DNA from: Pedobacter schmidteae
GTDB taxonomy: Bacteria; Bacteroidota; Bacteroidia; Sphingobacteriales; Sphingobacteriaceae
Assembly (NCBI RefSeq): GCF_900564155.1
Contig: NZ_LS999839.1
Span: 5,577,097 to 5,641,096 of the forward strand
DNA: 64,000 nt
Direction of reading: 5' to 3'
Numbering within the stretch: the stretch's first letter is position 1; each line of letters opens with the position of its first letter. Positions 32,430-37,876 of the stretch are shown piece after piece. Position numbers and translations under genes: made by a program. The notes under the pieces are model-generated. The model did not search any database and was not told the DNA's origin. It was given only the letters and a program-made list of their open reading frames with translations.

Positions 32430-33278
32430 ATGAAAACAACGTTAAAAACAATGCTATTGCTGGCACTAACGGTAGCATTTACCGCCGATCTTCAGGCGCA
32501 AGGCTTAAAAATGCCACAGGCAAGTACCAATCAAGTCATTACTCAAAACTTTGGATTGGGTAAAATTACCCTGAACTATTCGCGCCCAAATGTAAAAGGA
32601 CGTAAAATTTTTGGTGCGATGGAGCCTTACGGAACGGTATGGCGCACCGGTGCCAATTCTGCTACCATGATCAGTTTTACAGAACCCGTGAAAATTGAAG
32701 GTAAAGAATTACCTGCCGGAGACTACGGTTTGTTTACTATTCCAGGTAAAGACGAATGGACTGTAATCTTCAATAAAGGGGCTAAACAATGGGGAGCTTA
32801 TGAATACAAAGAAGCAGAAGATGTGTTAAGGGTTAAAGTTAAAGCCATCAAATTAAAAGATAAGGTAGAAACATTTACCATGCAGTTTGCAGATGTACTT
32901 GCTACCAGCGCTCAATTGCAGTTAGCCTGGGAAAATACCGCTGTAAATGTAAATTTAACTACTGAAGTAGACGCTCAGGTAATGGCCAGCATTGACGAAG
33001 CAATGAAAGGCGAGAAAAAACCGTACTTCGCGGCTGCACAATACTACTATTCAAATGGCAAAGATTTAAATAAAGCATTGGAGTGGGTTAATGCAGCTGA
33101 GGCAGCAGATGGTAAAGCACCATGGGTAAAATTATGGAAAGGCCGCATCCAGTTAAAAATGGGTGATAAAGCCGGCGCAGCTAAGACAGCAGCAGCAGGT
33201 TTGCAACTGGCAACTGAAATGAAAAACCAGGAGTATGTTCGTTTACACACCGAATTGCTAAGCGAAACAAAAAAATAA
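32430..33278 (+). CDS. DUF2911 family exported protein
   Basis: This 282-residue protein has a signal peptide (MKTTLKTMLLLALTVAFTADLQAQ). The DUF2911 domain at about 28-175 has the typical LNYSRPNVKGRKIFG, YGTVWRTGANSAT and ELPAGDYGLFTIPG segments, all hallmarks of this Bacteroidota family. The C-terminal 100 residues (YFAAAQYYYSNGKDLNKALEW) look like TPR helices. The function is not known. It is monocistronic with two successive terminator hairpins after it. Confidence 0.92.
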   Translation: MKTTLKTMLLLALTVAFTADLQAQGLKMPQASTNQVITQNFGLGKITLNYSRPNVKGRKIFGAMEPYGTVWRTGANSATMISFTEPVKIEGKELPAGDYGLFTIPGKDEWTVIFNKGAKQWGAYEYKEAEDVLRVKVKAIKLKDKVETFTMQFADVLATSAQLQLAWENTAVNVNLTTEVDAQVMASIDEAMKGEKKPYFAAAQYYYSNGKDLNKALEWVNAAEAADGKAPWVKLWKGRIQLKMGDKAGAAKTAAAGLQLATEMKNQEYVRLHTELLSETKK

Positions 33279-33574: not shown

Positions 33575-35284
33575 TTAAATCTCTTTTAAAGCTTTAGGTT
33601 TTCCGACACCCATAATTTGTTGCAGAAACAGCGAGATGAGCACCACTAACAGGCAACCAATTACATTGAGCCATAAATAAGCGATCAGTTCAGATCGTCC
33701 CAATACCACGATGACCGCTTCAGTTAGTAAAGCTGCAAAAAACACCGCTCTGCCATTTACCTGTTTTACATAAAATGCCACCAGAAAAACGCCCAATATA
33801 GTGCCATAAATATAGGAGCCCAATATGTTCACGGCTTCCAGCAAATTACCAATTTTACTGGCATACAAAGCCATTACGATACATACTACACCCCAAAACA
33901 CAGTAGCCAGTCGCGATGCCTGAAGATACTCATGATCAGATGCGTCTTTTTTAATCAATCGTTTATAAATATCGATCACTGTAGTAGAAGCCAATGAATT
34001 TAATGCACTGGCAGTAGACCCCATGGAAGCCAGAAAAATAATGGCTATCAATAAACCAATCAATCCCTTTGGCAGATATTGCGTCACAAAGCTCAAAAAG
34101 ATATAGTTGTTGTCTTTTATATTAGCATGCTCATCGTTCTTCAGCATTAAGTCAGTAACTGCCTTTCTAATGCCTTTTTCTTTTTCGTCGGCTTGTTGCA
34201 GCGCTGTCCGCTGTTTATCAATAAGTACTTTATCATCGGCATCTAGTGCCGCGTTCATTTTGTTTACTTCGAGTTGCTTTTCGTCAAAAGCGCGGTTATA
34301 ATCCTGTTTAATTTTATCCAGTTCGGAGGCATACTTGCTATTTTCCAGCTTGCTCAGCTCAAAGCTGTTAAAAAAAACAGGCGGCCGGTTATATTGATAA
34401 AAGGCAAATACCAGCACCCCAATCAGCAGGATCAAAAATTGCATCGGTATTTTCACTAAGCCGTTCATCAACAGCCCTAAACGACTTTGGCTCACAGAAG
34501 CTCCTGACAAATATCTTCCTACCTGGCTTTGGTCGGTACCGAAATAAGACAATTGTAAAAAGAAACCACCAATTAAACCCGTCCAAACAGTATATTGATT
34601 GTTCAGGTCCAGTTTAAAATCAATGGCATTGGTGCGGCCCATTTTTCCGGCTATGCTGATGGCCCTGCCAAAGCCAATATCACCAGGAAGCAGGTGTACT
34701 ACCATAATACCCGCCGCAAACAATCCGCAAAATATAATGCTCATTTGCAGCATCTGAGTATAAGAAACAGCCTTGGTACCACCGTAAACTGTATAAAATA
34801 TAACCAGGCTACCAATAAACAAAGTGGTATAGGTGGTATTGATATTTAAGATAGTAGATAAGATAATAGAAGGGGCATAAATGGTGATCCCGGTTGAAAG
34901 TCCTCTTTGGATTAGAAAAAGGAAAGCTGTCAACGCCCTTGTTTTCAAGTCAAAACGCTGCTCCAGATATTCGTAGGCTGTATAAACCTTTAATCGATGG
35001 AATATAGGCACAAAGGTGATGCACAGCACAATCATAGCCAAAGGCAGACCAAAATAAAATTGCACAAAGCTCATCCCCGAAGAATAAGCCAGACCAGGGG
35101 CAGATAAAAAAGTAATGGCACTAGCCTGGGTAGCCATTACAGAAAGGCAAACGTGGTACCAGGGCAATGACTGGTTGCCTAACAAATATCCCTGAATATT
35201 CTGAGCACCTCTGCTTTTATAAACACCGTACACTACAATGACAACGAGTGTAATAATTAATACAGACCAATCAATAACACTCAT
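33575..35284 (-). CDS. Sodium:solute symporter family transporter with a coiled-coil insertion
   Basis: This is an inner-membrane SSS-family transporter expected to import a small solute with sodium. The start is the ATG at 35282-35284 (MSVIDWSVLIITLVVIVVYG), which overlaps the stop of the small gene upstream by four bases (ATGA), giving 569 residues. It has about 13 helices. The family segments GYLLGNQSLPWYHVCLSVMATQ and FLASMGSTASALNSLASTTV are present. Between helices, around residues 304-388, lies a charged segment of about 85 residues with heptad-like coiled-coil character, unusual for the family's core. It is cotranscribed after the PIG-L deacetylase. Confidence 0.93.
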   Translation of the reverse strand: MSVIDWSVLIITLVVIVVYGVYKSRGAQNIQGYLLGNQSLPWYHVCLSVMATQASAITFLSAPGLAYSSGMSFVQFYFGLPLAMIVLCITFVPIFHRLKVYTAYEYLEQRFDLKTRALTAFLFLIQRGLSTGITIYAPSIILSTILNINTTYTTLFIGSLVIFYTVYGGTKAVSYTQMLQMSIIFCGLFAAGIMVVHLLPGDIGFGRAISIAGKMGRTNAIDFKLDLNNQYTVWTGLIGGFFLQLSYFGTDQSQVGRYLSGASVSQSRLGLLMNGLVKIPMQFLILLIGVLVFAFYQYNRPPVFFNSFELSKLENSKYASELDKIKQDYNRAFDEKQLEVNKMNAALDADDKVLIDKQRTALQQADEKEKGIRKAVTDLMLKNDEHANIKDNNYIFLSFVTQYLPKGLIGLLIAIIFLASMGSTASALNSLASTTVIDIYKRLIKKDASDHEYLQASRLATVFWGVVCIVMALYASKIGNLLEAVNILGSYIYGTILGVFLVAFYVKQVNGRAVFFAALLTEAVIVVLGRSELIAYLWLNVIGCLLVVLISLFLQQIMGVGKPKALKEI

Positions 35285-35424
35285 TCGAAATATTTGGTAA
35301 AAGCGTAAAAAATTAAAATCAGAAATACCAGCCAACCAATAAGCAAGCGGTAAAACTGCTTCCAGCTTTTAACAAAGGGAGGCAAGTCTTGCTCTTTCTC
35401 GGTTATGGACTCTTTCTCTATCAT
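35281..35424 (-). CDS. 47-residue single-pass membrane protein, translationally coupled to the symporter
   Basis: This small gene begins with ATG at 35422-35424, 13 bp after the deacetylase stop, and ends with TGA at 35281-35283, overlapping the symporter ATG in an ATGA junction. The N-terminal 27 residues are charged (MIEKESITEKEQDLPPF, then a KSWKQFYR amphipathic stretch) and one membrane helix follows (LLIGWLVFLILIFYAF), ending KYFE. The coupling points to a subunit or stabiliser of the symporter, similar in concept to the small partner proteins of some SSS and bd-type complexes. It has no recognised family. Confidence 0.8.
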   Translation of the reverse strand: MIEKESITEKEQDLPPFVKSWKQFYRLLIGWLVFLILIFYAFTKYFE

Positions 35425-35437
35425 TATTAACTGCTGA

Positions 35438-37876
35438 TTATTTTTTAATGGACAATAAGTTTACGAATAACCTATAAGCCCCAGGTACACCTGCAGGCAG
35501 TTGTCTGAAAAATGAAATACCGGTGTACACATATCTGCCTTTACCATAATCTGCAACGATCAACGATCCCGTTTTGGCACTTTCACCAGTATCGTTCATG
35601 CTCAGTACAGCCGTATATTTCTGGTCAGCATCTGCCACAAAATATAAGCCGCGTTCTTGTATCCAACCGTCGAAATCCTGAGCAGTGATTTTATTCGGAT
35701 AGTTTAACAACTGATTTTGCGGAGTAAGAACAGTGACTTTTGCGTCTTCCTCGGTAACCCTATCGCGCGACAAGCGGAAGGGAAAAGGTCCCATATTTTC
35801 GATTTTCAGTGGAGAGTTCACATTATATTGAACAACCAGGTTTCCTCCGTTTTCCACATACTTCATCAGTTTGGGCTGCATGTTTTTAATCTGATCGCTT
35901 ACGTTATACAAGCGTACTCCTGTAACGATGGCATCAAAAGCCGAAAGGTCTGTATGCATTACCTGCTGTTCGGTCAGGGTAACTACTTCGTAACCAATCT
36001 GCTTTAAAGATTCGGGTACAAGATCGCCTGCACCGGCAATATAGCCTATACGTTTTCCAGCAAACTTCAGATCAACCTTATCCAACCGGGCTTCTGCTGT
36101 CGGAAAAAGTGTTTGCACCGGAATGTGTTCATAATTGATCACCCGTAAGCCTTTGTCATAGGTTTTGCCGTCAACCGTTACCTGAAGCAATAAACTGCCT
36201 CCAGTAATATTTCCTGCCGGAGTAATGGTAAAAGTAGCTGACTGCTCATCACCTTTTTTGGCCAATGTAAAATCAATTTTTTGAGGGTTTGATTTCCAAC
36301 CTGCCGGCACCTGTGGCATCAATACTCCCGAGGCATTGTCTTTAAAACTCTTTAAAACAACGGTGATGCTTTTGGCTGCATTCCCGTTAAAAATAAAAGC
36401 TTTTTCGGAAAGTGTAGCCGTTACCGGCGGGGCAATAACCAGGGGTTGATAAATCTCGCCACGTACCTGATCGGTGTATTTATATACCACCGGGCGCGAC
36501 TTTTCTATCACCTGATCACCAATTTTAATTCTAAATGTTGCGGCAAGCGCTGGTAAGTTTTCAGGCATTCCAATTTTTGACTGATCGTTGACCACAAAAG
36601 TTCCTTGCGAATGCTCCTTTTCAAGCCAGTAAGGCTGGGTGATCCCCGCCTTGCTGCTGCTTATTTCCTTATCCTGGCTTACAAATTTATTGGGTGATAA
36701 ATCGAATGCTGCTCCACTATTGGTTTCCTGCAGACTGATAGCCAGCGAAAAATCAGACTTTACTCTTGCGATGCCTTGTACTTTTACACTTACAGGTTGG
36801 TTTAGGGCGTAAGTCGCATTTGCAGCGGCACTTTCGAACCAGATGCCTCCACAAGCCAGAATTATATCATCTAACAAATCGTGTTTAAATGGCTTTCCTT
36901 TAACCAATTCTCTTAATTTTAAAAGCTTCGCTATTGATTTAGAAGGATCAGCAGCATCATATCCTTTACTAATCTCTGTTAGCAATTGCTGTATCACTTC
37001 AGCACCTGCGGTTCTGTTTAAGGTAAAGTCAATGCCTTCAAATATATCCCGGCTTGCTTTTTCGCCTGCAACCGGTGTGAAAAATTCAATAGAAGCGCCT
37101 CTTTGCCTGGCCGAACCGAAGCCCTGGCTTCTGTGGTTAGATCTGCTTTCGGCCGCTATTTCGCCATAGCTTTTACCCAGCAAAGGATTATATAAACCGA
37201 CATCAATTTTTAGCTGATCGTCGGCCGTGGTATTGTTTCCACCAAAGTTGAAGGTATTCCATACAATGCGCTTTGTTTTCCATGGCTTCACAAAAGCCAG
37301 TTGCTCCGGAAACTGATTCGGATCGGCAGCGGCCACAAAAGCCTCGCGCGCCAGGATAGCCGAACCTGAGTGGTGACCATGACCGGCACGTGCATCCTCC
37401 GGGAAACGGGTAATGATTACATCGGGCTGAAACTTACGGATCACCCAGACCACATCAGACAGGATCTTGACCTTGTCCCATATTTTAAAACTCTCTTCGG
37501 GATTTTTAGAAAAACCAAAATCATTGGCACGGGTAAAAAATTGTTCGGCACCGTCAGTACGGCGGGCGGCAAGCAACTCCTGCGTCCGAATCAGGCCCAG
37601 TAACTCGGCCTGTTCATTGCCAATCAGGTTTTGTCCACCATCTCCCCTGGTTAGCGACAGGTAGCCCGTTTTAACCTTTTTTTCTTTGGCCAGATAGCCC
37701 AGCAAACGGGTATTTTCGTCATCCGGATGTGCGGCTATATACAACACACTTCCAGTAACACTCAAGGCTTCAAGGCCTTGCTTTATTTCGGCAGCATTTA
37801 GCTGCTGCATATTTTGTGCTTTAGATAAAAAAGGTACAACTGCTGCAACAACAAGCAGATACAAACGAAACTTCAT
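35438..37876 (-). CDS. Exported PIG-L/LmbE-type deacetylase with a C-terminal amidotransferase-like domain
   Basis: This protein would remove acetyl groups from N-acetylated sugars or related compounds outside the cytoplasm. It has 812 residues with a signal peptide (MKFRLYLLVVAAVVPFLSKAQ). The zinc site motif is AHPDDE at 49-54, with TRGDGGQN near 76 and RAGHGHHSGSAIL later. The middle is beta-rich, and the final 200 residues (RIGYIAGAGDLVPESLKQIG; FDAIVTGVRLYN) resemble a class I glutamine-amidotransferase/ThuA-like fold. It is the first gene of an operon with the small membrane protein and the symporter, which suggests that the product released is then imported. Confidence 0.92.
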   Translation of the reverse strand: MKFRLYLLVVAAVVPFLSKAQNMQQLNAAEIKQGLEALSVTGSVLYIAAHPDDENTRLLGYLAKEKKVKTGYLSLTRGDGGQNLIGNEQAELLGLIRTQELLAARRTDGAEQFFTRANDFGFSKNPEESFKIWDKVKILSDVVWVIRKFQPDVIITRFPEDARAGHGHHSGSAILAREAFVAAADPNQFPEQLAFVKPWKTKRIVWNTFNFGGNNTTADDQLKIDVGLYNPLLGKSYGEIAAESRSNHRSQGFGSARQRGASIEFFTPVAGEKASRDIFEGIDFTLNRTAGAEVIQQLLTEISKGYDAADPSKSIAKLLKLRELVKGKPFKHDLLDDIILACGGIWFESAAANATYALNQPVSVKVQGIARVKSDFSLAISLQETNSGAAFDLSPNKFVSQDKEISSSKAGITQPYWLEKEHSQGTFVVNDQSKIGMPENLPALAATFRIKIGDQVIEKSRPVVYKYTDQVRGEIYQPLVIAPPVTATLSEKAFIFNGNAAKSITVVLKSFKDNASGVLMPQVPAGWKSNPQKIDFTLAKKGDEQSATFTITPAGNITGGSLLLQVTVDGKTYDKGLRVINYEHIPVQTLFPTAEARLDKVDLKFAGKRIGYIAGAGDLVPESLKQIGYEVVTLTEQQVMHTDLSAFDAIVTGVRLYNVSDQIKNMQPKLMKYVENGGNLVVQYNVNSPLKIENMGPFPFRLSRDRVTEEDAKVTVLTPQNQLLNYPNKITAQDFDGWIQERGLYFVADADQKYTAVLSMNDTGESAKTGSLIVADYGKGRYVYTGISFFRQLPAGVPGAYRLFVNLLSIKK

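Follow-up and report, generated by a model that had tools for sequence, protein, structure and literature searches.

That a secondary transporter can have a tiny subunit is known. MetS of the methionine transporter MetPS (NSS family) and other one-helix subunits such as KdpF are tiny hydrophobic proteins encoded together with their transporters, although these transporters belong to families other than the sodium:solute symporters (SSS). Beside SSS genes themselves, short membrane proteins of the DUF485 (YjcH/ActP type), DUF4212, and DUF997 (YhdT) families are encoded. The proteins of these three families and of the DUF3311 family are longer than the protein described here and mostly have two helices, unlike this one-helix protein. 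In a regulator mutant of Sinorhizobium fredii, expression of the DUF3311 gene beside MctP falls together with that of its symporter neighbour, as described in an excerpt of one report (PMC9100948).

For the human SLC5 transporters SGLT2 and SGLT1, the described small partner is MAP17 (PDZK1IP1). According to excerpts of two studies, MAP17 binds SGLT2 through its single helix, SGLT2 transport requires MAP17, and MAP17 may help the localisation and folding of SGLT2 rather than directly change its activity (PMC10803289, PMC12605011). The excerpt of the former places the contact with MAP17 at TM13 of SGLT2 (PMC10803289).

Here, we analysed a small gene located immediately upstream of an SSS gene in a stretch of 64,000 nucleotides of Pedobacter schmidteae DNA (the window). 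Its product resembles the DUF485, DUF4212, DUF3311, and DUF997 proteins in being a short membrane protein encoded beside an SSS gene, and it resembles MAP17 in being a small single-helix protein whose putative partner belongs to the same SSS/SLC5 superfamily. It differs from MAP17 in that no sequence relation between the two was detected and in that SGLT2 has the contact helix TM13, whereas the symporter of the window, modelled with 13 helices, appears to be without an equivalent of this helix.

The small gene and the symporter gene in the window

The genes are arranged on the minus strand in the order of a PIG-L/LmbE-type deacetylase gene (37876–35438), a gap of 13 nt, the small ORF (35424–35281), and the symporter gene (35284–33575). 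The small ORF starts with ATG at 35424 and stops with TGA at 35283–35281, and the stop and the start codon of the symporter gene share the sequence ATGA at 35281–35284. The translation of the small ORF, consisting of 47 amino acid residues, is MIEKESITEKEQDLPPFVKSWKQFYRLLIGWLVFLILIFYAFTKYFE. A preliminary description of this DNA had proposed a frame of 47 residues at 35281–35424, without stating its strand, that begins 13 bp after the deacetylase stop, ends in an ATGA overlap with the symporter start, and encodes a charged N-terminus followed by one hydrophobic helix. All of these features were recovered in our analysis, with the frame on the minus strand, the deacetylase ORF ending at 35438, the symporter starting at 35284, and the best 18-residue Kyte-Doolittle mean of the small protein being 2.21. 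A one-helix frame of 47 residues can easily be overlooked by gene finders.

The symporter gene (33575–35284, minus strand) encodes a protein of 569 amino acid residues, which was assigned to the SSS/SLC5 sodium:solute symporters based on PF00474 (E = 1.7e-38, 133 bits, cut-off 22.8), TIGR00813 (237.2, above the cut-off of 184), and a structure model with the SSS fold. By sequence, SMVT was its best match (E = 2e-44). The model (36 rows) had a pLDDT of 70.9 and a pTM of 0.69, with residues 1–54 below a pLDDT of 50, and 13 membrane helices were counted from its helix list. The folds nearest to the model were NIS and SMCT1 (Z 38), followed by SiaT, SGLT2-MAP17, and vSGLT; superposition of NIS gave a Z of 38.3 and 2.2 Å over 425 residues. 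The model also aligned to SGLT1-MAP17 chains. The alignments to SGLT2 chains stopped at residues 549–555, suggesting that TM13 is absent from the modelled symporter. Residues at approximately 300–395 formed a charged insertion of roughly 90 residues between helices 8 and 9; it was modelled as a helical hairpin (approximately 319–383), one of the regions modelled with the highest confidence.

The deacetylase gene upstream of the small gene (35438–37876, minus strand) encodes a protein of 812 amino acid residues containing PF02585 (E = 2.5e-17). On the other side, a gene encoding a DUF2911 protein (32430–33278, plus strand; PF11138, E = 8.6e-58) is convergent with the symporter gene. A DUF2911 gene was a frequent neighbour of the symporter, the cluster of this protein being present in 19 of 40 neighbourhoods. 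The region marks a conserved unit of PIG-L, the small protein, and the SSS symporter, often with DUF2911.

Occurrence of the small gene in Bacteroidota

Matches to the small protein at E ≤ 0.01 were obtained in 102 of 151 genomes of the same family, well beyond chance, with at least one spurious case among the 102 (G035, in which the match lies inside a 1166-aa frame). In another of these genomes (G006), a stop was present inside the match, outside an intact ORF of 40 amino acid residues. Because short proteins are poor queries, the searches were anchored on the symporter. In the order sample, 137 of 151 genomes carried it (E ≤ 1e-60), and in the phylum sample, 114 of 296 did (E ≤ 1e-90). Loci were fetched for part of the order-sample matches and for nearly all of the phylum-sample matches, the loci left out of the latter being G501, G493, and the second match of G513. 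From a total of 248 loci, 32 were removed (31 duplicates and one without a symporter), giving 216 distinct symporters. An iterated profile was run on the tails of plus-strand ORFs from 330 nt upstream of the symporter start to 60 nt past it.

A homologous short one-helix ORF was found just upstream of 198 of the 216 distinct Bacteroidota symporter orthologs at a profile E < 1e-3, the profile having been trained on the same loci. Since 27 of the 216 loci had entered the set via the small protein itself and were positive by construction, the counts were also taken without them, and 171 of 189 loci were positive, with 113 exact overlaps. In the 198 profile-positive loci, 140 small ORFs overlapped the symporter gene by exactly 4 nt, the overlapping sequence being ATGA in 137 of these, and 189 had stops located −12 to +4 nt relative to the start of the symporter gene. 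A later set selected by the symporter only, consisting of the best 80 of 573 relatives (named loci), included Flavobacterium, Maribacter, Tenacibaculum, Polaribacter, Zobellia, and Aquimarina; the small ORF was present in 80 of 80, as judged with a profile that already contained relatives of these loci. In this set, 64 of the 80 small ORFs ended 1–3 bases before the symporter gene without overlap. A genuine small membrane protein tied to the symporter gene, as envisaged in the preliminary description, occurs in Bacteroidota well beyond the family of the window.

The 18 profile-negative symporters were divided into four with a diverged small ORF, as judged by eye (L129, L133, L197, and L198), five with a different short hydrophobic ORF at the same place that was not recognised by the profile (L130, L142, L186, L189, and L191), four with the gene elsewhere, and five with no small gene visible upstream of the symporter (L127, L134, L173, L181, and L182). 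The stop of PIG-L overlaps the symporter start instead in L134, L181, and L182.

When whole genomes were searched, the profile matched 77 of 198 Bacteroidota genomes. The match in G405 was weak and located inside a 674-aa frame, and it was set aside. In 71 of the remaining 76 genomes, the match was located within approximately 100 nt of the symporter gene when the coordinates were compared by eye, and the other five were four split cases and G252. One additional weak match (E 4e-4 to 5e-3), at a distance from the symporter, was present in each of G254, G323, and G403. In the split genomes (G251, G263, G279, and G323), corresponding to symporter loci L185, L188, L194, and L196 of the 216, the small gene is separated from the symporter gene by approximately 15 kb, and both genes are intact. 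In L249, the only split locus whose genes were typed, the small gene lies downstream of a WbqC gene, and SusC/SusD-type, ROK, MFS, and sodium:sulfate-symporter-type (SLC13-like) genes occupy the insert. The split small-gene loci (L249, L250, L251, and L252) belong to four genomes of genus g77, and the small gene and the symporter gene are still adjacent in four genomes of this genus (G290, G294, G384, and G396). G252 (L253) has an apparently intact PIG-L gene and an apparently intact small gene, with only a remnant of the symporter found within the fetched stretch.

The genome of the window contains nine SSS genes (ten matches, two of which are in one gene), and the profile matched the small gene at one place only. 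The motif of the small protein was absent from the listed upstream ORFs of the other eight SSS genes of this genome. One of these genes (L343) is preceded by a moderately hydrophobic ORF of 63 amino acid residues (hydropathy of 1.64), which ends 84 nt upstream and does not have the motif.

Sequence conservation and predicted topology of the small protein

The small proteins and their symporters were aligned as 277 pairs (197 + 80) after one short symporter had been dropped; the sequences were those chosen by the profile. The preliminary description had named a lack of conservation or stop codons in related genomes as evidence against its proposal; the frame was found intact in relatives. In the comparisons below, pairs are not independent of each other. 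For closer pairs, the pN/pS values of the last 27–28 codons of the small frame were 0.06 (5 pairs), 0.13 (22 pairs), 0.28 (53 pairs), and 0.27 (14 pairs), and those of the symporter were 0.02–0.10. For distant, near-saturated pairs, the values were 0.50 (959 pairs) and 0.36 (411 pairs) for the small frame and 0.19 and 0.16 for the symporter, respectively. The two shifted frames gave pN/pS values of 1.0–2.1, and synonymous changes dominated in the frame of the small gene only. Judged from the conserved frame and the purifying selection, the small ORF is a real, selected protein-coding gene.

Among the 277 profile-chosen sequences, W21 was conserved in 269, Y25 in 276, I36 in 240, and F39 in 222, and position 43 was occupied by T in 171 and by M in 98. 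The two most conserved of these residues belong to the KSWKQFYRLL-like core, the conservation of which had been anticipated in the preliminary description. Conservation followed a period of 100 degrees, corresponding to one face of a helix (column permutation, p = 0.00015 for the whole helix and p = 0.0002 for the core). A stretch whose 18-residue hydropathy mean exceeded 1.6 was present in all 277 aligned tails (median, 2.44), and the median length of 39 amino acid residues (202 ORFs) leaves room for one helix. K and R were in excess on the N-terminal side in 238 sequences and on the C-terminal side in 4, with equal numbers in 35, and an N-in/C-out orientation was predicted from this bias. 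Based on its homologs, the selection on its frame, and the conserved helical face, the product of 35281–35424 (minus strand) is a predicted single-helix membrane protein with this orientation. Because the N-termini of SSS proteins lie outside, a helper ending outside just ahead of the symporter would be topologically reasonable.

In a family search with the single sequence, YqfD was at the top (E = 0.096), and nothing rose above noise. Individual scanning of 58 small-protein members against Pfam and NCBIfam (E ≤ 0.1) gave weak and scattered matches to 16 and 8 families, respectively, the best of which were DUF2976 (five members, best E of 0.0014) and AmaP (two members, best E of 0.004). A KdpF-type model was touched by one of the 58 members (E = 0.042). 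None of the 58 members matched DUF485, DUF4212, DUF997, DUF3311, or MetS-type models in Pfam or NCBIfam at this threshold, distant homology being possible, and none matched the MAP17 (PDZK1IP1) family in Pfam, which presumably contains a MAP17 model. No description of the small protein was found in the titles and abstract starts of the open-licence papers searched, and the words "subunit" and "accessory" do not occur in one review (PMC7918813). As far as these open-licence papers, Pfam, and NCBIfam are concerned, the family seems to be new, and so does its association with one SSS symporter throughout the phylum.

Inter-protein mutual information with APC did not locate an interface of the small protein with the symporter. 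The top pairs linked L32 and L35 in the small protein to residues 473–491 and 304 of the symporter; these pairs look like clade markers and were rejected as an interface. The observed maximum was 9.6, compared to a mean of 7.1 and values up to 16.9 after shuffling inside clusters of 70% identity. Thirty-nine pairs were above Z 5, compared to a shuffle mean of 6.05, and these pairs were spread over the symporter and may represent residual relatedness. A read-through chain model of the small protein and the symporter (39 rows) had a mean pLDDT of 49.8 and was set aside as contact evidence.

Possible function of the small protein

The 47-aa protein is probably a small accessory subunit (microsubunit) that belongs to the SSS symporter whose gene lies directly downstream. 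In the best reading, the partner would be the 13-helix NIS/SMCT-like symporter, on which the small protein would work as MAP17 does on human SGLT2. The single helix would insert in an N-in/C-out orientation with its basic W..xY end facing the cytoplasm, and the face formed by W21-Y25-L28-L32-I36-F39-T43-F46 would pack against the symporter and assist its folding, stability, or operation. Through the overlap, translation of the two genes would be coupled, the subunit being produced immediately ahead of the symporter. Physical binding, an effect on folding or activity, and a 1:1 stoichiometry are all inferred, and the MAP17 analogy suggests that the role may be in folding, stability, or gating. 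The preliminary description had taken the overlap as a sign of a stoichiometric small subunit. An accessory subunit remains the best explanation, but the ATGA overlap points to coupled translation and not to a 1:1 complex.

A 4-nt overlap, or else a spacing of a few nucleotides, is very common, and the small ORF could mainly act as a translational leader whose termination-reinitiation delivers ribosomes to the start of the symporter gene, with a peptide of little function. We consider this very unlikely, since the small frame is under selection at the amino acid level, one helical face is conserved, and the exact overlap is missing in 58 of the 198 loci; in addition, the presence of both intact genes approximately 15 kb apart in four genomes argues against a mere leader. 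This retention of the small gene when it is unlinked suggests that its product acts in trans, and small membrane proteins have varied targets. The product might be a free-standing protein directed at another target, such as membrane stress or another transporter, that merely shares the operon. This is made improbable by the association of the small gene with a single group of symporter orthologs throughout the phylum sample and by the lack of a second profile match in the genome of the window despite its nine SSS genes.

PIG-L is the usual upstream neighbour, being detected in 163 of the 216 fetched loci, in five others of which the upstream sequence was too short, and in 27 of the 40 neighbourhoods. 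The small protein could thus be a membrane anchor or partner of this deacetylase instead of the symporter, and the intact PIG-L and small gene beside a symporter remnant in G252 fit such a link. However, among the loci whose upstream sequence covers at least 2.3 kb, 34 contain the small gene and the SSS gene with no PIG-L detected in that stretch, four loci keep PIG-L and the SSS gene without a recognised small gene, and the overlap is with the symporter gene. The linkage of the small gene is stronger to the symporter than to PIG-L, and we regard a role as anchor or partner of the deacetylase as unlikely. Against the accessory-subunit reading, the five symporter loci with no visible small gene appear to do without it. 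The failure of mutual information to locate an interface, the gene arrangement in G252, and the hydrophobic ORF without the motif upstream of L343 also count against this reading.

If the protein is an accessory subunit, the analogy with MAP17 can be extended. We lean slightly toward the view that the small proteins are an undescribed, phylum-wide family of one-helix micro-subunits of a Bacteroidota SSS symporter and a separately evolved counterpart of MAP17, possibly filling the position of the missing TM13; that the small helix stands in for TM13 is speculation. A protein tied to one symporter across a bacterial phylum, for which no Pfam or NCBIfam family was found, indicates how much conserved membrane biology may lie below the length limits of gene finders. 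The small protein and its symporter may provide a simple bacterial model for the need of some SLC5 transporters for a single-helix helper, the reason for which is still discussed for MAP17 and human SGLT2.

In many relatives, a second short ORF (approximately 59–73 amino acid residues), absent from the window, was observed between PIG-L and the small gene. Three examples of its product gave no Pfam match. The product is glycine-rich and has two hydrophobic stretches, and the ORF ends approximately 94–114 nt before the symporter start (examples: L009, L010, L014–L016, L018, L019, L021–L026, L028, L029, L076–L078, L080, and L082–L084).
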